NCBI GenBank assembly: GCA_000403335.2
Contig: KE159617.1
Location: forward strand, 849,757 to 913,756
Direction: 5' to 3'
Length of the DNA stretch: 64,000 bases
Source: Lachnospiraceae bacterium MD335
GTDB lineage: Bacteria > Bacillota > Clostridia > Lachnospirales > Lachnospiraceae
Numbering within the stretch: position 1 is the stretch's first letter; each line of letters opens with the position of its first letter. Below, piece by piece: positions 1 through 12,656 of this stretch. A program made the position numbers and the translations under genes. The notes beneath the pieces are model-generated. The model searched no databases. It was not told where the DNA came from and saw nothing but the letters and a program-made list of their open reading frames with translations.

Positions 1-588
1 AGTCAATTTATAGATAAGTTAGTTGTTTCGACAGACAGTGGTGAGATTGCTAAAGTATGTGAAGCATATGGTGTAAAAGTTCCCCAATTGCGACCGGATT
101 ATTTAGCTACAGATAATGCCTCATCAATGGATGTGTTGGAGTATACGATTCAAAACGAAGAGAACGATGGCTGCGTGTATGATTATATCATGCTGTTGGA
201 GCCTACTTCACCTTTGCGTAAGAAGGGGGACCTTGATAATATTATCAAGTTAGCAGGAGATAATCCGACCAGGGATGGAGTGATCTCAGTTGGAGAGGTA
301 CAACTGGAGCATCCGATGATCGTTAAAAAAATTGCGGAAAATGGCGCAATTATTCCATATCTTTCAGAGAATATAAAGATATATCAAAGACAGCAGTATG
401 ACGAAGCCTTGTTTCCATATGGTGTCGGTTATTTAATTAAAAATTCCGCGTTTAGAAAGGCGCATACAATTTATACAGATAATGTGATCCCTTATTTTAT
501 AGAACGATGGCAGAATTATGAAATAGATGATATTTATGATTTTAAATGCGTTGAAACAATTATGCAGATGGAGATGGATAAAATATGA
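1..588 (+). CDS. Acylneuraminate cytidylyltransferase family protein (5' partial)
   Basis: The reading frame is open from the first base, so the N-terminus, including the nucleotide-binding P-loop, lies outside the window. Visible blocks VVSTDSGEIAK, TDNASSMDVLEYTI and MLLEPTSPLRKKGDLDN are typical of CMP-sialic/legionaminic/pseudaminic acid synthetases, cytoplasmic enzymes that load a nonulosonic acid with CMP before glycan assembly. The stop overlaps the next gene by 4 bp (ATGA), so the two are translationally coupled. The family call is firm; which sugar is activated cannot be decided here, because no NeuB-type synthase is visible. The TTG at 88 is only an internal codon. Confidence 0.85.
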   Translation, partial: SQFIDKLVVSTDSGEIAKVCEAYGVKVPQLRPDYLATDNASSMDVLEYTIQNEENDGCVYDYIMLLEPTSPLRKKGDLDNIIKLAGDNPTRDGVISVGEVQLEHPMIVKKIAENGAIIPYLSENIKIYQRQQYDEALFPYGVGYLIKNSAFRKAHTIYTDNVIPYFIERWQNYEIDDIYDFKCVETIMQMEMDKI

Positions 589-3462: not shown

Positions 3463-4518
3463 ATGACAATTATAATATGGGGAATAGGAAATATGTCCTG
3501 TCTAATAGAGGAATATATAAAACATGATGTGATAATTGCTGCATATGTCGATAATAATGCAAAAAATGCGGGAGGGGGGTATGTGAATGCGCACGAACGT
3601 AAAACGCGTATTGTGAGTGCTGATGAGGTTAAAGATATTGCGTTCGATTTCTGTGTTATTGCGGTAAAAGACTCTCAAACAATAGTACAGCAATGCTTGA
3701 AAGATCTTAAAATACCGAAAGAAAAAATTTTAGAGATAGTAAAACTTACAGAGTGGGATATAGACTTGCGTAATCGTATTTTTAATGAAAGGATAGTTGA
3801 TAATTCGAGGAATTATGTGATTGAGGGTGTTTGTATTGATTTAGGGGAAGGTCATGCATTGCCGTCTTATCAGAAATATTTTAAAATGTATGACAGGTTT
3901 ATTCCATATTTAGCGAAAATGACACAGGAAAAAACAGGAAAATATATTATTGATATTGGTGCGAACGTTGGAGATACATTAGCGGCGATGCTGAATCATA
4001 CAGATGATAATTTTTTATGTATTGAACCTGTTGGACAGTTTTTCAACCTTTTGGCAAGTAATATTCAACATTTCGATAATCCAAACAGGATTTGGCTTGA
4101 GCAGGCATTTATTACAGATAAGATGAGTGAAACTTATGAAGCCATCATTTCGGATAAAGGGACGGCAGCCAAAATGCCAACAGATTCAAATACGACTTCG
4201 CGAATTCCCAGTAAGTCGGTAGATTACTTACTTGAGGAAAGGAATATAACTTATGAAGAGGTAGATTTATTAAAGATAGACACGGATGGGTTTGATGCTG
4301 ATTGTATAATTTCTGCGAGTAAATTGTTAGAAAAGGGCAGTGCATTCATTTACTGGGAAAACTATAATGAAACGTATGATCAATATATCAAGTATTTGAA
4401 CGCATACAGATTATTAAATGAAAATGGATATTCTGTATTCTTTGTTTTTGACAATTATGGCAATTATTTGTGCAAAGGCGGAATTGATGTTTTAAATTCT
4501 ATTTTGGATTATGTGTAA
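3463..4518 (+). CDS. FkbM-type SAM methyltransferase with N-terminal Rossmann-like module
   Basis: A 351-aa, two-domain protein. Residues 1-105 form a nucleotide-binding-like module starting TIIIWGIGNMSCLIEEYI, which recurs in three other genes of this locus. Residues about 150-330 are an FkbM methyltransferase: YIIDIGANVGDT (SAM loop), CIEPVGQFF and LLKIDTDGFDADCI. It likely O-methylates a glycan sugar. GGGAGATAAAGGAG precedes ATG 3463. The frame stays open for 45 codons after the TAA and that stretch looks like the family C-terminus, so the protein may be truncated by a nonsense codon (see the next entry). A G6 run lies at 3574-3579. Confidence 0.75.
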   Translation: MTIIIWGIGNMSCLIEEYIKHDVIIAAYVDNNAKNAGGGYVNAHERKTRIVSADEVKDIAFDFCVIAVKDSQTIVQQCLKDLKIPKEKILEIVKLTEWDIDLRNRIFNERIVDNSRNYVIEGVCIDLGEGHALPSYQKYFKMYDRFIPYLAKMTQEKTGKYIIDIGANVGDTLAAMLNHTDDNFLCIEPVGQFFNLLASNIQHFDNPNRIWLEQAFITDKMSETYEAIISDKGTAAKMPTDSNTTSRIPSKSVDYLLEERNITYEEVDLLKIDTDGFDADCIISASKLLEKGSAFIYWENYNETYDQYIKYLNAYRLLNENGYSVFFVFDNYGNYLCKGGIDVLNSILDYV

Positions 4519-4656
4519 AGAGCGCATACTGGTTGTATTGGAAATACTTTTAAATATTTTGATGTACTTACTTGTAAGATGAATGACGTTGAGAAATGTG
4601 AAAGGTATATTACGCAGTATTTAGATCAATATTTATTACATAGAATCAGTTGGTAA
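4519..4656 (+). pseudogene. In-frame C-terminal tail of the FkbM gene, cut off by TAA at 4516
   Basis: Directly after the TAA at 4516-4518 the same frame continues for 45 codons to a second TAA at 4654. The product would include TFKYFDVLTCKMNDVEKC, which from memory resembles the usual end of FkbM proteins (a YFDVL-type strand followed by a helix). No start codon with a ribosome binding site exists for it as a separate gene. The simplest reading is a recent nonsense mutation, a sequencing error or programmed readthrough. The similarity claim is recalled, not computed. Confidence 0.5.
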
Positions 4657-4680
4657 GACAAAGCAAGCAGGGAGAATAGA

Positions 4681-5805
4681 ATGGATTTTATACCAGTAAA
4701 TGAACCATTGTTAGATGGAAATGAAAAAAAATATTTATGCGAATGTATTGATACTGGATGGATTTCTTCGGAAGGACCATTTGTGAAAGAATTTGAGCAG
4801 AAGATGAGTGCAACGGTGGACAGAGCGTATGGGATCGCGGTTTCTAATGGTACGGCGGCATTGGAAGTTGCGGTTCAGGCATCGGGGATAGGAGAGGGCG
4901 ATGAAGTAATTATGCCCGCATTTACGATTATCTCCTGCGCGATGGCTGTTACGAAAGTAGGGGCTGTACCTGTATTAATTGACAGTGACTTGCATACTTG
5001 GAATATGTGTGTAGATGAGATTGAAGCAAAGATAACGCCGAGAACAAAAGCTATTATGATAGTCCATTTGTACGGGCTTCCGGTTGAAGTAGACAGAGTT
5101 CTTGCATTGGCAAAAAAGTATAGCTTGAAAGTGATAGAAGATGCGGCAGAGATGCATGGACAGACATATAAGGGAAAGCCTTGCGGAAGTTTTGGCGATA
5201 TTAGCACATTCAGCTTTTATCCAAATAAGCATATTACAACGGGTGAGGGTGGAATGCTTGTGACGGATGATGATGAACTTGCTCAAAGATGCAGGCTGCT
5301 TAGAAATTTGTGTTTTAGAAAAGACGTCAGATATGTCCATGATGAAATTAGTGATAACTATCGGTTTACTAATTTGCAAGCAGCAGTTGGACTTGCCCAA
5401 CTGGAACGTTTAGAGGAGTTTGTAGAACGAAAAAGAGCGATGGGGAGGTATTATACTGAGAAGCTGCGAAATATACAGGGATTAATGCTTCCGATTGAAA
5501 AAATGGAATATGCTGATAATATTTATTGGGTTTATGGAATTGTATTAGACAGCGAAATTCAGGCTGATAATATAACAATGCAGAAACTTTTGGCAAAAGA
5601 AGGTATTGGTTCAAGAACTTTTTTTTGGTGTATGCATGAACAGCCGATATATCAAAAACAGGGATTGTTTTTGAATGAAGCATATCCGAATGCAGAATAT
5701 CTTGCAAGAAAAGGTTTTTATATTCCCAGTGGACTTGCATTGACAGAGAAGCAGATGGATAAAGTTGTGACAGGGTTATTAAAGGTAATGAATAGTATTC
5801 GATAA
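4681..5805 (+). CDS. DegT/DnrJ/EryC1/StrS family sugar aminotransferase
   Basis: A 374-aa PLP-dependent aminotransferase of full family length. Visible blocks are TGWISSEGPFV, SNGTAALEVAV (phosphate binding), VIEDAAEMHG (the Asp that contacts the PLP nitrogen) and FSFYPNKHITTGEGG, with Lys183 as the Schiff-base lysine. Such enzymes convert a 4-keto (or 3-keto) nucleotide sugar to the amino sugar; the sequence feels closest to perosamine synthase-like members. GCAGGGAG precedes ATG 4681. No dehydratase partner is visible in the window, so it may lie to the left. Confidence 0.9.
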   Translation: MDFIPVNEPLLDGNEKKYLCECIDTGWISSEGPFVKEFEQKMSATVDRAYGIAVSNGTAALEVAVQASGIGEGDEVIMPAFTIISCAMAVTKVGAVPVLIDSDLHTWNMCVDEIEAKITPRTKAIMIVHLYGLPVEVDRVLALAKKYSLKVIEDAAEMHGQTYKGKPCGSFGDISTFSFYPNKHITTGEGGMLVTDDDELAQRCRLLRNLCFRKDVRYVHDEISDNYRFTNLQAAVGLAQLERLEEFVERKRAMGRYYTEKLRNIQGLMLPIEKMEYADNIYWVYGIVLDSEIQADNITMQKLLAKEGIGSRTFFWCMHEQPIYQKQGLFLNEAYPNAEYLARKGFYIPSGLALTEKQMDKVVTGLLKVMNSIR

Positions 5806-5829
5806 ACGGTAGGTGCAGCAGGGGACAAA

Positions 5830-7041
5830 ATGACAAATAGAGAAGAAAGGACCACTATGGAGAACAATAAAAAAACAGGCATTGATATGCGGGGGGGGGG
5901 TATTGATGCTGATAAAAGTTCTAATTATATTCAGGAAAAAGTAAAAGATATCAATGCAAGATTATGCGCTTTACAAGGCGTTTCAAATATTGTTATTTGG
6001 GGAGCGGGAATACACACTGCAAAGCTATTTGAAAAAACGAATATACTTTCTTATAGTATTGCAAATATCGTGGATATAGATGAGAGAAAACAGAACGAGA
6101 AATACTTCGGATACATCATAAGAAATCCAAGAGAAATATCATGGAGCGGTGTGAATGCTGTCATAATTTCTGTGTGCGGTAAAGAAAAGCAAATTATGAA
6201 AAGTTTGACAGAATTAGGGTATTTAGGAAGTATCGTTCGACTGTATTCAGATGAAGAAACGACACCATTTTATTTGTTATATGATAAAAGAATATCCCAA
6301 AATATTATAGGTGGGGATTATGATAATTGGACAGATGCTTGTAATGCGAGCAGTGGCTATGATGATAAAAATATTATAGCGAAAGTAGCTGACTCAATGC
6401 AGAAGGTGCTATCAGGTGACGCTGTATGGGAAAGGGATGGCTGTTTATTTTATGAACAAAAATTCGTATATCCAATTTGCGCAGCCATCTTAAGATGCGC
6501 ATTACAAAATGATAATAAGGGTGTGCGGGTATTGGATATAGGTGGATCGTTAGGAAGTACATATATTCAAAACAGGGAGTATTTACGCTATGTGAAAAAC
6601 TTAGAGTATATCGTTGCCGAGCAGAAATGCTTTGCGGAGTATGGACATAAAAACTTAGAGAATCAAGTTTTAAAGTTTATTAATAGTGGAGATGATTATA
6701 GTAATTATGCCGGGGTTGATATCGTACTGCTGTCAGGAAGTTTACAATATATTTATCCATATGAGAAACTGATTGATAAAATAACAGAAATAAGACCGCA
6801 TTATATTATTATTGATAGGGTTATGATTAGCAATAGAATGCGGATATGCAGACAAGTTGTATCAAAAGAAGAAATATATCAAGCCAGTTTGCCAATAACA
6901 ATTTTTAGCGAGTCTTGGATTAATAGCTGCTTTTCTCCTGAATATAAATTAGTAGAAAAGAATGCTGCAAGTGTTTTAGAATATGCGTACTTTACAGATG
7001 ATAAAGCGGATGCCAGATTTTATGTTTTTGAAAGAAACTGA
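5830..7041 (+). CDS. TIGR04325-type methyltransferase with Rossmann-like module and G10 tract
   Basis: A 403-aa protein. Residues about 45-150 carry the locus-specific Rossmann-like module (NIVIWGAGIHTAKLFE). Residues about 160-400 resemble the TIGR04325 putative methyltransferase family: WTDACNASSGYDD, VLDIGGSLGSTYIQNR and VLLSGSLQYIYPY. A run of exactly ten G (5891-5900) lies in codons 21-24 (Arg-Gly-Gly-Gly). With ten G the frame is open; nine or eleven would give an early stop within about 20 codons. GCAGGGG precedes ATG 5830. A second ATG at 5857 also lies before the tract, so start choice does not change the argument. Confidence 0.75.
   Translation: MTNREERTTMENNKKTGIDMRGGGIDADKSSNYIQEKVKDINARLCALQGVSNIVIWGAGIHTAKLFEKTNILSYSIANIVDIDERKQNEKYFGYIIRNPREISWSGVNAVIISVCGKEKQIMKSLTELGYLGSIVRLYSDEETTPFYLLYDKRISQNIIGGDYDNWTDACNASSGYDDKNIIAKVADSMQKVLSGDAVWERDGCLFYEQKFVYPICAAILRCALQNDNKGVRVLDIGGSLGSTYIQNREYLRYVKNLEYIVAEQKCFAEYGHKNLENQVLKFINSGDDYSNYAGVDIVLLSGSLQYIYPYEKLIDKITEIRPHYIIIDRVMISNRMRICRQVVSKEEIYQASLPITIFSESWINSCFSPEYKLVEKNAASVLEYAYFTDDKADARFYVFERN
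5891..5900 (+). repeat. Homopolymeric G10 tract inside a coding region
   Basis: Ten consecutive G near the 5' end of the TIGR04325-type methyltransferase gene, in otherwise AT-rich coding sequence. This is the hallmark of slipped-strand contingency loci in surface-glycan genes. The current length keeps the gene in frame. Confidence 0.85.
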
Positions 7042-7064
7042 TGTAATATAAGGGAGAAAATAAA

Positions 7065-7499
7065 GTGGGACAAATTGAAGAAGTAAAGAAAAAAAATAAG
7101 TTATTGGCTATGATTATTCGTAACAATTATGTATGCGAGGGCGTGGATTTTATTACACCAAACGAATACTCGCAACAGGTAGCATATATGCATCACCCGA
7201 CGGGAAAAGTAATTGATGCGCATGTACATAATTTGGTTCACAGAAATGTAGTGATGACCCAAGAAGTTTTGCTCATAAAAAAGGGAGCTTTAAGAGTTGA
7301 TTTTTATGATGAGTATGAAGATTATTTGGAAAGCAGAAATCTGTATGCGGGAGATATTATATTGCTTGTTTCAGGAGGACATGGTTTTAGGGTATTAGAA
7401 GAAGTTGAGATGATAGAGGTGAAGCAGGGACCGTATGCGGGAGAACAGGATAAAAAACGATTTGCTGGTATCGAGGAAACGCAGATTAGGTATGTATAA
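7065..7499 (+). CDS. Small cupin-like protein of the glycan locus
   Basis: A 144-aa protein starting at GTG 7065 with AAGGGAG upstream. Residues 40-130 read as a single cupin barrel: DAHVHNLVHRNV supplies candidate metal or substrate His residues, followed by GALRVDFYDE, LYAGDIILLVSGGHGFRV and VKQGPYAG. Small cupins in such loci are often sugar 3,4-ketoisomerases or binding proteins, but the function here is open. It sits 16-30 bp from its neighbours on the same strand, consistent with one operon. Confidence 0.6.
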   Translation: MGQIEEVKKKNKLLAMIIRNNYVCEGVDFITPNEYSQQVAYMHHPTGKVIDAHVHNLVHRNVVMTQEVLLIKKGALRVDFYDEYEDYLESRNLYAGDIILLVSGGHGFRVLEEVEMIEVKQGPYAGEQDKKRFAGIEETQIRYV

Positions 7500-7529
7500 C
7501 AGAAGACAGGAAGAATGAGGAAAGTGGAT

Positions 7530-8288
7530 ATGGAAGTATTTCATGATTACGCATATTATTATAATGCTTTTTACAGAGATAAAGATTATGTAAGGGAAGC
7601 AAAACAAGTTGATATATTGTTAAGAAAATATGGAAGCAATGTTAAACAGGTCATTAATTTTGGATGCGGTACAGGGATGCATGACATAGAATTGGCGCGT
7701 ATGGGATACTCATGTACAGGTATTGATATAAGTCCAATAATGATAGAGATTGCAAAAAAGAATAATAAAAAACAAGCAGGGAATATTTCATTTTCGGTTT
7801 CTGATATCCGTAGTTATAGAGCGGAGAGGAAATTTGATGCGGTGATTTCCTTGTTTCATGTTATGAGTTATCAAAATACAAATGAGGAAATACTGGATGC
7901 ATTTTGTTCTGCAAGAAAAGCATTGAATAAAGGAGGCGTGTTTTTATTTGATGTTTGGTATGGCCCAGGGGTTTTGAGTGACAAACCAGCGGTTCGCGTA
8001 AAGGAAGTTCAGGATGATAAATATAAACTCATACGAGTAGCCAAACCGACTATGCATGACAAAACGAATGTTGTAGAAGTTTCTTATGATGTCTTGGTTG
8101 TTGATACAAAATCAAACACTGCAAAGGCAATAAATGAAGTACATAATATGAGATATTTTTTCAGACCAGAACTGGAATTTTATTTGAAAGAATCCGGATT
8201 TGACTTGATTGACAATTTGGACTGTGCAACACTTGGTCAAACTGGATATGATTCGTGGACAAGCTATTTCATAGCGACAGCCATTTAG
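7530..8288 (+). CDS. Class I SAM-dependent methyltransferase
   Basis: Motif I is VINFGCGTGMHDIELA; motif II is CTGIDISPIMIEIAKK; VSDIRSYRAERKFDAVISLFHV covers the post-I and motif IV region. The fold and length (about 250 aa) fit small-molecule or sugar methyltransferases found in glycan loci. ATG 7530 is preferred because GAGGAAAG lies at good spacing; ATG 7515 in the same frame is the alternative. The methyl acceptor is unknown. Confidence 0.8.
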   Translation: MEVFHDYAYYYNAFYRDKDYVREAKQVDILLRKYGSNVKQVINFGCGTGMHDIELARMGYSCTGIDISPIMIEIAKKNNKKQAGNISFSVSDIRSYRAERKFDAVISLFHVMSYQNTNEEILDAFCSARKALNKGGVFLFDVWYGPGVLSDKPAVRVKEVQDDKYKLIRVAKPTMHDKTNVVEVSYDVLVVDTKSNTAKAINEVHNMRYFFRPELEFYLKESGFDLIDNLDCATLGQTGYDSWTSYFIATAI

Positions 8289-8300
8289 ACAGGTGATTGT

Positions 8301-9452
8301 ATGGGGAAAAAAATTGTTGTTGTGTTGGAAACGGATCCAGAATGGGGAGGACAGCATCAGTATGCATTAATGCTGATGGAATGCTTGTTGGAAATGGCAG
8401 ACATTGATTTGGATGTGAATGCAATATGTTGTAGCAGATATTGGCGAAAATGGTGTAGAGAGAATAAAATACACGTTTTGGATACATCATGGCTTTCTTT
8501 GTGTGAGAGGGAACAGCAGTATCATATTAAGCATTCGTTGCTTTCAAGGATATATTGCACATTTATGAGTGAGATTGGAAAGACACTTCGGAAAGAGAAA
8601 GTAGAGGCAGTATTATGTACAACACAAGGGATGTTCATTCCTAATCTGAATACAAAGGTTATTGTGCCGGTGCATGATTTGATGCACCGCTATGAGGGAC
8701 AGTTTCCAGAAGTGAAAAGTGAATATAAAAAAAGGGAATTGATTTTTGGCTCGAAAGCGAAATATGCATGGTGTGTGTTGACAGACTCTAAATTGGGAAA
8801 AGAACAGTTCCGGGAGTCTTATTCGAACTGTATGACAAGAGGATTGCCGCATATTGTAAGCTTGCCATTTGTAGTATCAAAGCATATTGCGAGGTGTGAA
8901 GAAGCATTTGTGGATGTTCCTTCGAAATATGTGTTTTATCCTGCTCAATTTTGGGAACATAAAAACCATATTCATTTACTTGAGGCGGTTGCGCTTCTCA
9001 AGGATGTTATACCAAATATTCATTTGGTGTTAGTTGGCTCGGAAAAAAATAATGGAAGAAAAATTCAAACATATATATCGGAACATGAATTGGGTGAGAA
9101 TGTTACAATTAAAGGGTTTGTAAGCGATGAAAATATAACATATTTATATAGACATGCGGTTGGAATGATTATGCCGTCATATTTCGGGCCAACCAACATA
9201 CCGCCGCTTGAAGCGATGGCTTTAGGATGTCCCGTTGCAGTGTCTGATAAGTATGCAATGCCTGAGCAGGTAGGAGATGCGGGACTTTTGTTTAATCCTG
9301 ACTCACCAAAGGAAATAGCGGAGTGCATCAGGAAAATGTGGTGTGATGAAAAATTAAGGCAACAAATGATAAAAAAAGGCTACGAGAGGGTTAATAGATG
9401 GACGAAGAAAAAGTTCTGCAAAAGGCTTGAAAAAATTATAGAGAAACTATAG
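8301..9452 (+). CDS. Glycosyltransferase family 4
   Basis: A 383-aa GT-B glycosyltransferase. The C-terminal donor domain shows YVFYPAQFWEHKNH, LVLVGSEKNN, VTIKGFVSDENITYLY and FGPTNIPPLEAMALGCPV, the last holding the E-x7-E-type retaining motif region, then GDAGLLFNPDSP. It is cytoplasmic and likely adds one sugar to the lipid-linked repeat unit. AGGTGAT precedes ATG 8301, 12 bp after the upstream gene. Donor and acceptor cannot be predicted. Confidence 0.88.
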   Translation: MGKKIVVVLETDPEWGGQHQYALMLMECLLEMADIDLDVNAICCSRYWRKWCRENKIHVLDTSWLSLCEREQQYHIKHSLLSRIYCTFMSEIGKTLRKEKVEAVLCTTQGMFIPNLNTKVIVPVHDLMHRYEGQFPEVKSEYKKRELIFGSKAKYAWCVLTDSKLGKEQFRESYSNCMTRGLPHIVSLPFVVSKHIARCEEAFVDVPSKYVFYPAQFWEHKNHIHLLEAVALLKDVIPNIHLVLVGSEKNNGRKIQTYISEHELGENVTIKGFVSDENITYLYRHAVGMIMPSYFGPTNIPPLEAMALGCPVAVSDKYAMPEQVGDAGLLFNPDSPKEIAECIRKMWCDEKLRQQMIKKGYERVNRWTKKKFCKRLEKIIEKL

Positions 9453-9507
9453 AACCTTAGTAAGGAATGTGTTTCATTTTGGAAAATCATGTTTGGGAGG
9501 ATTTTGA

Positions 9508-9990
9508 ATGAAAAAAGGAATAATTTCAATTGTATCAGCATTAATAGGAGCGGCGCTTGGAGCAGGCGCTGTGGGAAAGGCTATTGGAGAAACGGTCAGT
9601 AAGAGCCAAAGTAAGTCGGATAAACATTTGGCGCTTTATCTAATGATGAATCAGTGGGTAAAGATAAAACAGGAAGGAAAAAGCCTGGCTGTATATTTTG
9701 AAAAAAACGGATATGAAAGGATTGCGATATATGGCATGAGCTATGCCGGAAAAACGCTGATAAATGAATTGAAAGATACAAACATAACTGTTGTTTATGG
9801 GATTGATCAAAAAGCAGATTTCGTTTATTCAGGGGCAGATATTGATATTGTGTCAGCAGACAATGATTTGGAGTCAGTGGATGCTGTTGTAGTGACGGCA
9901 ATTACATTTTTTGAGGAAATTGAGGAAAAACTCTCACTTAAAATAGATTGCCCGATATTATCGTTAGAAGATATTTTATATGAATTGTAA
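9508..9990 (+). CDS. Small membrane-anchored protein with Rossmann-like module
   Basis: A 160-aa protein. The N-terminus (IISIVSALIGAALGAGAVG) is a glycine-rich hydrophobic segment with a zipper look. Residues about 45-160 form the same nucleotide-binding-like module seen in neighbours (IAIYGMSYAGKTLINEL, VVYGIDQKADF, DAVVVTAITFFEEI). I do not recognise a catalytic domain. TTGGGAGGATTTTG precedes ATG 9508. Similar short proteins are often seen in clostridial exopolysaccharide loci (recalled). A role in organising or sensing the pathway is conjecture. Confidence 0.55.
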   Translation: MKKGIISIVSALIGAALGAGAVGKAIGETVSKSQSKSDKHLALYLMMNQWVKIKQEGKSLAVYFEKNGYERIAIYGMSYAGKTLINELKDTNITVVYGIDQKADFVYSGADIDIVSADNDLESVDAVVVTAITFFEEIEEKLSLKIDCPILSLEDILYEL

Positions 9991-10045
9991 GTTGTTTTAG
10001 AAATAGAATGGCAGAAAATATAAGTTTGTAAAGGAACGAAAGAAT

Positions 10046-10927
10046 ATGAACATTGTTAGAATATCGGATGGATTAGGAAACCAGATGTTTCAATATGCTT
10101 ATGCGAGAAAAATAAGTATATTGTCAAGGCAAAGGACATATCTTGATATTCGGTTTATTAATAATGAGGATTTGGTAAAAAAAGGAAATCATGTTCAATT
10201 TAGAAAAAAGTTAGGACATAGAAAATATGGATTATCTCATTTTAATGTATCACTTCAGATAGCAGATCTAAAAATGCTTTCGCACTGGGAATATTTAATA
10301 CAGTCTAATTGTATGCAACAGCTTATTTATAGTCTTTCGATGCAGGATAAATGGATTTGGAGGTATCGACATGAAGAAGTCAACTATGATGGAATGTTGT
10401 CAAAAGTCGAGTTGCTGTTTCCCACATATTATCAGGGATATTTTTTTGCATTAAAATATTATGATGATATAAAACATATTCTACAACATGATTTTTCCTT
10501 AAAGGATAAAATGAAATTGTTGCCAGAATTGCGCGATGCTTTATATAATAGAAATACGATTTCTTTGCATGTACGCAGAGGAGATTTTTTAGAAATTAAT
10601 CGTGATATCAGCGGTTCTGAATACTATGAAAAGGCAGTTCAGATGATTGGAAGTAAGGTAGAATCCCCTATATTTTTAATATTCTCAGATGATATTGAGT
10701 GGGTAAAGGAACATATTCGGATACCAAATGATAAAATTTATGTTAGTGGGATAGGATATGAAGATTATGAGGAATTAACGATTATGAAGCATTGCAAACA
10801 TAATATCATTGCAAATAGTACATTTAGTTATTGGGCTGCGTATTTAAATTCTAATAAAGATAAGATAGTGATTTGTCCAAAGCATTGGAGGGAGCGTATT
10901 ATTCCCAAAGATTGGATTTGCATATAA
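10046..10927 (+). CDS. Alpha-1,2-fucosyltransferase-like glycosyltransferase (GT11)
   Basis: A 293-aa protein with the GT11 hallmarks: ISDGLGNQMFQYAYARKI at the N-terminus, SLHVRRGDF at residues 173-181 (the HxRRxD motif that binds GDP-fucose) and IIANSTFSYWAAYLN near the C-terminus. It is an inverting, metal-independent transferase adding fucose, or occasionally a related 6-deoxysugar. Its stop is immediately followed by the ATG codon at 10928, so it is cotranscribed with the GT2 gene. Confidence 0.9.
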   Translation: MNIVRISDGLGNQMFQYAYARKISILSRQRTYLDIRFINNEDLVKKGNHVQFRKKLGHRKYGLSHFNVSLQIADLKMLSHWEYLIQSNCMQQLIYSLSMQDKWIWRYRHEEVNYDGMLSKVELLFPTYYQGYFFALKYYDDIKHILQHDFSLKDKMKLLPELRDALYNRNTISLHVRRGDFLEINRDISGSEYYEKAVQMIGSKVESPIFLIFSDDIEWVKEHIRIPNDKIYVSGIGYEDYEELTIMKHCKHNIIANSTFSYWAAYLNSNKDKIVICPKHWRERIIPKDWICI

Positions 10928-10975
10928 ATGGAATTTGGGAATGATGTTATAGAAGAAGGAGTCATAAAGAGAAAA

Positions 10976-12223
10976 ATGGTAGTAGTTTCAATTATTATTC
11001 CTGTTTATAATGCACAACAATATATAAAAGCGTGTATAGACAGTCTATTGAGACAGACATATCCATATTTTGAAATTATATGTGTCGATGATGGTTCGCA
11101 GGATCAGTCATATGAGGTATTAAAGGAATATGCAGAACGTGACGACAGAATAACAGTTATTACACAGGAGAATCAGTTTGCAGGAGCTGCGAGAAATATC
11201 GGAATGGAAAGAGCAAAAGGAAAATACCTTTTATTTTTAGATGCGGATGATTTTTTCTGTGGGGATATGTTGGAATGTATAGTGGATAAAGCGGAGAAAG
11301 AGTGCGCTGAAATTGTAGTATTTGATGCTTATATGTATGATGATGTGTCGGATAAAGTGACAAATGCCTCGTGGAACGTGTTGCAAAAGGGACTTTTTGG
11401 TGAAGGAATAAAGTCGGCGAAAGAACTTTCAAAAGTTATTTTTAATTTTACGGTTCCGGCATCATGGAATAAGCTGTTTTTAAAAGCTTATGTTACTCAA
11501 AATAACTTGCGATTTCAAAATATTAAGAGAACAAATGATTTGTATTTTACATATTCAGCACTTTCTTGTGCAAAACGGATCGGAATATTGAATAAAAAAC
11601 TAATCTATTATCGGCGTAATAACATGAAAAGCCTTCAGGGAAGCGCTCATGAGACGCCTGCGGTATTTGTGCAGGCGTTGTATGCTTTACGTGATTTTTT
11701 AATGGATAGAAATCTTTGGAAAATGTACCAAAGTAGTTTTAGTCATATGGCAGCAGATATTTGTATTAGTAATTTGGGTAATATGAAATCTGTTGATGCA
11801 TATAAACAGTTATGTGAAACGTTGAAGAAAGAAATAATGCCAAATTTAAAGCTGGAATTGGACAAAGCAGGGGAAGAATTAAAAAGTTCAATTTATCGTT
11901 GGGAAAAATTAATGGTATATGGTGCCGGAAAAATGGCGACAACATTTGTAAACTTTTTGCTATTACAATGCGGATATAAAAAAGAAAAGATAACAATAGC
12001 AGTTACAGACATCTCATGTGCTGCAAAACAAATCTGTGGCATAAGGGTACACGAAATAGATAAGGCAGATAAGGAGAGGAAGGGCGGCTTGGTAGTAATT
12101 GCCATTGCGGAAAAAGCAATACAGAATGAAGTGGAGAATAATTTGCGTGATAGGGATTATAAAATGATTTCAAAAGTAGGCTACGAAGAAATGTTGGACT
12201 TGTTGCAGACGTTTGAACGGTAG
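10976..12223 (+). CDS. Glycosyltransferase family 2 with C-terminal Rossmann-like module
   Basis: The N-terminal GT-A domain shows VSIIIPVYNAQQYIKACIDS, VDDGSQDQS, AAGAARNIG-type spacing and LLFLDADDFF (DxD-like metal site). The last 110 residues are the recurring module LMVYGAGKMATTFVNFLL, so this is a fusion. ATG 10976 gives a standard GT2 N-terminus, with AAGAAGGAG upstream at slightly long spacing. An ATG at 10928 abutting the previous stop would add 16 residues. This is the last gene of the glycan locus and a terminator follows. Confidence 0.85.
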   Translation: MVVVSIIIPVYNAQQYIKACIDSLLRQTYPYFEIICVDDGSQDQSYEVLKEYAERDDRITVITQENQFAGAARNIGMERAKGKYLLFLDADDFFCGDMLECIVDKAEKECAEIVVFDAYMYDDVSDKVTNASWNVLQKGLFGEGIKSAKELSKVIFNFTVPASWNKLFLKAYVTQNNLRFQNIKRTNDLYFTYSALSCAKRIGILNKKLIYYRRNNMKSLQGSAHETPAVFVQALYALRDFLMDRNLWKMYQSSFSHMAADICISNLGNMKSVDAYKQLCETLKKEIMPNLKLELDKAGEELKSSIYRWEKLMVYGAGKMATTFVNFLLLQCGYKKEKITIAVTDISCAAKQICGIRVHEIDKADKERKGGLVVIAIAEKAIQNEVENNLRDRDYKMISKVGYEEMLDLLQTFER

Positions 12224-12252
12224 TAACAACCGTATATTATGCAAAAAAAATT

Positions 12253-12286
12253 CCAGTGTAATATATTTATTACATTGGGATTTTTA
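12253..12286 (+). terminator. Rho-independent terminator closing the glycan locus
   Basis: The stem CCAGTGTAATA pairs with TATTACATTGG (one G-T wobble), with loop TATT, followed by GATTTTT. It lies 30 bp after the GT2 stop. Confidence 0.8.
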
Positions 12287-12656
12287 TATTCCTGACATTC
12301 TTACAAAACTGTTAGATTTTATTGCTTAATTGAAAGAATACCGAAAGATTTCTATGAGATACTTTGTATGGCGGATATTGACACCCGCATTAAAAAGTTG
12401 TATATTTTTATCTGTACTAACCGTATTAATACGGATAAAAACTGTATTTTATAAAACAAAAAGAATATATTTATAAATCTTTTATAAAAACAGAATAACT
12501 TTTATAAAATTTTAAGATGTCACAAATTAAACTAAAATTAAGAAATTATTAAAGACAAAATAAACTATCAGTGCTATGATAAAAAACTAAGAAAACAATG
12601 CAATTTTGTGCTCAGGGCATAAATTCGCAGACTGAGAAGGGAGCATGGTTATTAAA
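12287..12656 (+). promoter_or_regulatory. AT-rich intergenic region with repeated palindromes before the ABC operon
   Basis: No gene is seen in this stretch. It contains the perfect 14-bp palindrome CCGTATTAATACGG (12421-12434) and three copies of TTTTATAAAA at 12447, 12480 and 12500, spaced 33 and 20 bp, close to whole helical turns. A TATGAT hexamer at about 12577 could be a -10 box, but no convincing -35 is seen. The region plausibly holds the promoter and operator of the export operon. Confidence 0.4.

Follow-up and report, generated by a model that had tools for sequence, protein, structure and literature searches.

The locus considered here raises the question of whether ten consecutive G near the start of a methyltransferase gene of Lachnospiraceae bacterium MD335 act as a switch of that gene. 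Judging from the sequence of the window, i.e. the whole 64,000-nucleotide stretch of DNA that was analysed, and from its comparison with related genomes, the G10 run is very probably a slipped-strand phase-variation switch of the translational contingency type. In the proposed mechanism, slipped-strand mispairing at replication would add or remove a G: ten G would allow the methyltransferase to be made; with nine or eleven, a stop 13 or 1 codons beyond the tract, together with the lack of a start nearby, would leave no enzyme, and the cells of a single clone would bear a surface glycan with or without the methyltransferase modification. We infer slippage as the cause, switching at the window tract and the effect on the glycan; changes in length were seen at tracts of relatives only.

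The tract in its gene and locus

The initial annotation had proposed poly-G phase variation for a TIGR04325-type gene with the run in codons 21-24, 403 open codons at ten G, a TAA about 17 codons on at nine G, an immediate TGA at eleven G and no in-frame start soon after the tract. The observation was confirmed (Table 1): the G9 allele is shut 13 codons past the tract and the G11 allele after 1 codon, the candidate starts (ATG 5830, ATG 5857 and ATG 5887) all lie upstream of the tract, and the first in-frame ATG beyond it is at 6196 (codon 123). The run is longer than the homopolymer of at least 7-8 bases within an ORF that marks poly-G phase-variable genes and, as in such genes, a change of one base shuts the frame early without a nearby restart. 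That such a run is unexpected in this place, as was also claimed, holds for its flanks and not for its count: dinucleotide shuffles of the window contain 0.05 G10 matches on average, with at least one match in 5 of 100 shuffles. By count alone the G10 is only mildly unusual and is weak evidence; it goes beyond chance because of its sequence context. The 15-mer at this position reads TGCGGGGGGGGGGTA, with TGC where the pattern TACNGGGGGGGGGTA has TAC. GGG is the rarest glycine codon of the window (44 of 306 in 14 ORFs, tract excluded).

Table 1. Position of the tract, its frame-closing codons and the neighbouring genes in the window
Feature	Position	Strand	Remarks
Cytidylyltransferase gene	1-588	+	begins upstream of the window; Pfam CTP_transf_3; PseF-like at 123 bits, below the 205.7-bit cut-off
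FkbM-family methyltransferase gene	3463-4518	+	same locus
Interrupted motif copy TGCGGGAGGGGGGTA	3567-3581	+	within the FkbM gene; the A inside the G run makes a synonymous GGA codon
DegT/DnrJ/EryC1 sugar aminotransferase gene	4681-5805	+	best NCBIfam match LegC-like, 335 bits, under the 420-bit cut-off
TIGR04325-family methyltransferase gene	5830-7041	+	403 codons, open through the assembled tract; NCBIfam match
Leader of 32 codons carrying the tract	5830-5925	+	start apart, not present in the G022 homolog (31% identical)
Motif TGC-G10-TA	5888-5902	+	exact match to TRCGGGGGGGGGGTA, 1 base from TACNGGGGGGGGGTA
G10 homopolymer, proposed slippage switch	5891-5900	+	codons 21-24, CGG GGG GGG GGT
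TGA closing the frame at tract +1 base	5904-5906	+	
TAA closing the frame at tract -1 base	5942-5944	+	
First in-frame start codon after the tract, GTG	6070-6072	+	codon 81
Cupin-like gene	7065-7499	+	downstream; WbuC-like, below cut-off
Methyltransferase gene	7515-8288	+	downstream

The family assignment was borne out by an NCBIfam score of 161.7 bits, over the curated cut-off of 80, and the match is restricted to residues 161-378; ahead of it the window protein has the leader with the tract and an N-terminal part that is unassigned. A Pfam scan of this protein gave zero matches at E 0.001. The gene occurs in its own genome and in one other among 60 genomes (59 others, 35 of them of the genus). 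This homolog, in G022, is 31% identical and begins just at residue 33 of the window protein, from where the two align at 30%. The 32-residue leader thus lies outside the shared enzyme, and we propose from this comparison that it can tolerate the tract. A search of genome contigs by protein gave no relatives, and the searches of the 60 genomes and of these contigs did not turn up the window tract a second time.

Besides the genes of Table 1, the neighbours of the TIGR04325 gene include a family 2 glycosyltransferase and, upstream of the window, NeuB (N-acetylneuraminate synthase; 411.9 bits vs a cut-off of 399.65), LicD, a PglD-like protein and further aminotransferase genes. From these predicted functions the locus is read as one of the surface-glycan type, of the nonulosonic-acid kind: NeuB, the cytidylyltransferase, LicD and the glycosyl- and methyltransferases fit a surface structure, as predicted from the genes alone. 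The two downstream genes at 7065-8288 are probably co-transcribed, and no terminator-like site was found in 4400-7600.

The annotation had further pointed to a G6 run in the FkbM gene. The G run is present, but it is really the 15-mer of the tract with one A in it; this copy looks like a frozen tract, which the A should stabilise. A broken copy of this kind also suits the view that the window tract is itself stable, a chance or drifted glycine stretch devoid of a switching role, as do a G10 that is not rare enough alone, the presence of MutS1 and the equal length of most matched tracts (see below). The context shared across the genus, the out-of-frame and promoter members and the single-base differences described in the following sections nevertheless argue against a stable tract, and we hold it to be quite improbable.

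A common DNA context in the genome and the genus

The window tract belongs to a set of poly-G tracts in its genome, most of the long ones being placed on the context T[AG]C-N(0-2)-Gn-TA, in which T[AG]C ends 0-2 bases before the run and TA follows directly. The genome (G000; 4.96 Mb, 19 contigs) holds 19 runs of at least 8 G, the flanks of which were all read, and 11 of these have at least 9 G. The context is found in nine of the 19 runs, one more has CA for TA, and nine are without it, two of these being in a phage-like region on contig C13; among the 11 runs of at least 9 G, eight have the context and one further run is one base off. The two runs in the phage-like region, both without the flanking context, are a G9 and a G10 (L023 3845 and 5356, G000:C13).

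Six of the ten tracts with the context or a near context are clustered in 8.7 kb of contig C12 (L021, G000:C12:780000-797000, 3987-12652). They are G8-G10 tracts, three per strand, carried by genes for DUF6056, GT2-GtrA, sulfatase-type and FkbM proteins and for one unassigned product, with one tract before an unassigned ORF; from its predicted products this is a glycan/wall cluster. As assembled, one tract is out of frame, and in one gene the stop comes a single codon after the tract. Three other tracts lie 40, 45 and 84 codons into ORFs of at least 993, 752 and 1,071 codons in the fetched stretches; one of these ORFs has Fn3-associated matches above the cut-off, another has a fibronectin match that falls short of it, and the remaining one has no match. 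The tenth is the window tract. By predicted product, the set in this genome lies in genes for glycan, wall and very long proteins.

This context extends to the genus. The pattern TACNGGGGGGGGGTA has 65 matches, spread over 19 of 116 genomes; 6 of the matches are in the window's own genome. Of these 19 genomes, 18 belong to the window's genus, which is represented by 38 genomes, own included; its reversed form has 0 matches in the 116 genomes. Among the runs of at least 9 G in the 38 genus genomes, picked regardless of their near flanks (only A or T was required at both ends of the 23-mer), TA follows 101 of 137 and the full context surrounds 68 of 137. By comparison, TA follows 8.7% of the G4 runs in the fetched loci (n=1,064) and 8.1% of the G6 runs (n=37), with the full context in about 0.6% and 2.7%, respectively; the fetched regions are centred on found tracts, so that rows for G8 and longer come from loci biased to the motif. 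The maximum in the genus is 25 runs of at least 9 G in one genome (G016). The 109 runs of at least 9 G in the fetched loci are mostly G9 or G10 (93), with nine G11, four G12 and three longer; two of the three longest are in an odd stretch of L330. Among viral contigs, 88 stretches with the pattern were found among 2.9 million.

Of the 117 tracts, 72 were counted as in frame, 15 as open at a different length only and 15 as having a perfect TTGACA, and 15 remained unclassed. The in-frame class rests on loose criteria, in that just 4 codons upstream and 50 downstream of the tract are required: L339 passed by a start 7 codons upstream, though its 146-codon frame is closed, and the criterion alone placed the promoter copies L310, L315 and L340 out of frame. 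Tracts with a perfect -35 are in the promoter class by definition. The context is present in 45 of the 72 in-frame tracts, its frames being split 19, 15 and 11. Its presence in all three frames makes it a feature of the DNA and not of the peptide, and selection, if any, would act on the DNA. A peptide motif T-G-G-G-Y was rejected on the same finding.

Since the context does not depend on the frame, a site of binding or exchange could also be envisaged, in which a recombinase or other DNA-binding protein would recognise ATAC-Gn-GTAT with the G run as its core and in which sites in both orientations, as in the 8.7 kb of the C12 cluster, could invert gene ends. The consensus is near-palindromic (ATAC / GTAT). 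Beyond TRC/TA, however, the arms pair at 0.61 vs 0.66 expected at the first position and at 0.19-0.35 vs 0.25-0.30 at later ones, and both pairs of loci that differ in length differ by a single tract base; we consider such a site very improbable. A hairpin or strict palindrome was likewise unsupported, as the arms beyond the core pair no more than column composition predicts.

The genes with in-frame tracts were surveyed by hmmscan (70 of the 72, with at least 100 codons; L339 included). Among the 25 of 47 Pfam families listed at E 1e-5 are methyltransferases (6), BspA-type LRR (5), acyltransferase 3 family (5), sulfatase (5), DUF285 (4), FkbM (3), radical SAM (3), AMP-binding (2) and GT2 (2), and among the 25 of 201 NCBIfam families listed are PARCEL surface proteins (4) and DltA-type ligases (2). 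In this plain tally over 70 proteins, many of the listed families are predicted to concern the surface, the wall or glycans.

Promoter-spacer tracts and changes in tract length

In N. meningitidis, the poly-G tract of porA sits in the promoter spacer, and tracts are found in the same place in relatives of MD335. The pattern TTGACA-N(4-12)-G7-N(0-6)-TATAAT has 15 matches in 6 of the 38 genus genomes and none in the window's own, and the reversed pattern has 0 in all 38. The hexamers of the 15 matches are 16-21 apart (19 in 7 of 15) and the G run is interrupted in three. Among the fetched tracts, 15 have a perfect -35, and 11 of these an exact TATAAT; an ORF of at least 90 aa begins 16-229 nt on in 13 of 14 fetched copies, L317:8685, which is inside an ORF, being excluded. 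By sequence, these tracts thus lie between the -35 and -10 of putative promoters upstream of genes, as in porA, and their length would set promoter strength. Sigma-70-type promoters with a spacing above 17-18 are usually weak, and since the spacing is often above this value, many of the poly-G promoters may be low as assembled.

Nine of the 13 promoter-tract products were scanned, giving six LysM proteins, one BspA-type LRR protein and two without match. The six LysM proteins (L310, L315, L318, L320, L324 and L340) have signal-peptide-like starts, and the family looks, from this arrangement, set for mix-and-match expression. The converse idea, that coding tracts are hidden promoters, was rejected, as a perfect TTGACA is found at only 2 of 74 first-called in-frame tracts. 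Of these two, L324 was assigned to the promoters, given the signal-peptide-like ORF that begins 61 nt on, and L317:8685 to the coding tracts.

Differences in length were sought in seven cross-genome pairs of tracts with matched flanks, of which two differ and five are equal; two within-genome pairs were excluded, and the loci of three of the seven pairs come from one promoter set or a fixed-length find. The equal length in the pair L048/L060 weighs little, as L044-L073 were found by a fixed-length pattern. The loci L304 and L339 are 98.82% identical over 3,558 bp, with 41 mismatches and a single 1-base gap, which lies in the tract (G9 vs G10); their AMP-binding gene is open in L304 (146 codons before and 370 after the tract), whereas in L339 its frame ends 7 codons beyond the tract. 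The loci L054 (G10) and L086 (G11) are 94.8% identical over 2,070 bp with 4 gaps, and their methyltransferase gene, which has a weak PglD-like N-terminal match, is open in L054 (40 codons before, 292 after) and closed 3 codons past the tract in L086. The main caveat on both differences is that homopolymer lengths can be miscalled in assemblies.

These findings also bear on transcriptional slippage or programmed frameshifting, by which both alleles would give some protein and the tract would tune its dose. Slippage-prone runs are described as affecting RNA polymerases too (PMC9187656), and the longer open frame is on the G strand in 98 of 102 non-promoter tracts, a count that includes an in-frame class defined on that strand. 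Against this, the same element is found in promoter spacers, where translation has no part, and at tracts without a conserved reading frame, and lengths differ between genomes at the DNA level; we regard such dosage control as improbable. The phase-variation reading is supported by the frame logic, the leader missing from the homolog and the like tracts throughout the genus, and also by the out-of-frame tracts, the promoter-spacer tracts and the single-base differences between near-identical loci. Counted against a switch are the equal length in five of the seven pairs, the G10 that is not far beyond chance in shuffles, the full context missing from 69 of 137 genus runs and from nine of 19 long runs of the own genome, two in the phage-like region, and a full-length MutS1 in the genome, unlike the Campylobacter genome examined.

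Tract genes were also set beside tract-less homologs. Among the 22 alignments listed, most are at 27-59% identity, and in 10 there is no length change at the tract site, the codons there being mostly otherwise unrelated. In L350, the paralogs at 2305 and 3841 share DNIRGGGGVF, one with a G10 and the other with mixed glycine codons; the L350 tract lacks the 3' TA. L022 and L055 have kept the tract at 55% protein identity, L055 itself having been found by the motif.

Known systems, mismatch repair and other lineages

Discussion of phase variation in gut Clostridia centres mostly on DNA inversion, as in papers on Clostridioides difficile. The Campylobacter phasome consists of poly-G/C tracts in or near ORFs (cut-off of at least 7 G), and its three largest groups of poly-G genes are tied to flagellin modification (PMC6321876). 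The tracts described here are similar in lying within ORFs and in the 3' TA, which is common in Campylobacter too, but they often combine this TA with a 5' T[AG]C, in a Gram-positive gut genus that has MutS1. The nearest case found in a gut Gram-positive is the pilus of Bifidobacterium breve, which has an intragenic G tract (G10, G11) with replication slippage detected by maximum depth sequencing (PMC9187656); unlike the sortase-pilus tracts described there, the present tracts occur in many gene families and in promoters, many with a common flank. The porA promoter tract alters the level of expression in N. meningitidis (PMC3639595), and the spacer copies of this genus differ from it in sharing flanks with coding copies. 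Homopolymers, chiefly of A and T, have been treated as a general switch (PMC2831843), and phase variation of Clostridium flagellar sugars is mentioned elsewhere by reference to C. jejuni (PMC13317340). A literature search on phase variation, Lachnospiraceae and poly-G or homopolymeric tracts turned up only a paper on AB5 toxins and gut bacteria; broader searches brought up work on Campylobacter, Neisseria, Helicobacter, Bordetella, Treponema, Bifidobacterium and others, and no description of conserved flanks around poly-G tracts was found in the literature searched. The slippage mechanism is already known. As far as searched, the novelty lies in the host lineage, in how large the set is, in its occurrence in codons as well as promoter spacers and in the DNA frame common to many of the G runs. 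If these tracts switch, the surface of the genus would be a mixture within each clone, with consequences for phage escape, IgA binding and strain typing; genome annotation would also take live genes for broken ones.

Mismatch repair would damp slippage. A loss of this repair was rejected as far as MutS1 is concerned, since each of the 13 genus genomes checked has the full-length protein with a score above the cut-off; in the Campylobacter genome (G116) the MutS1 search gave a single weak match, taken for MutS2. The shared flanks make it testable why some homopolymers are hypermutable despite MutS1. We can conceive, at a low probability, of T[AG]C-N(0-1)-G9-10-TA(T) as a dedicated cis-element and more than a slippery run: a short DNA frame of fixed form, read by a trans-acting factor or the polymerase, that would site poly-G switches and keep them unstable despite MutS1. 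A single genus of Lachnospiraceae would use it in codons and promoter spacers, and Selenomonadaceae, Treponema and some Bacilli would share it through convergence or common descent.

A motif confined to the genus was rejected, as like contexts are present in Selenomonadaceae, Treponema and Bacilli, and the 3' TA in Campylobacter. Among the matches listed, in genomes chosen for at least one match, TAC-Gn-TA is frequent in Selenomonadaceae, Treponema and a Bacilli species; TA follows 63 of 150 listed runs in Campylobacter, or 49 of 130 without repeats. In a class-wide draw of 245 genomes, 71 have a run of at least 9 G (with A or T at the ends of the pattern), and for genomes that have one or two runs in the list, TA follows in 15 of 60 hand-picked rows. 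In another Clostridia genus (f41 g95; G168, G203, G257, G347 and G388), TA follows 28 of 35 listed G9 tracts, the 5' flank mostly ending in TC. From these counts, the 3' TA seems to be a wider mark of poly-G tracts and T[AG]C to be typical of some lineages. Two further genomes have flanks of their own among the matches listed: the Bacilli genome G129 (that of L138) carries 16 [AT]GTTTAC-Gn-TAGCT tracts that are nearly identical and may be repeats of a promoter or a gene start, and in the Candidatus Ancillula genome G136 (that of L104) there are several ACAAGCA-Gn-TGCTA tracts, in which AGCA and TGCT form inverted arms.
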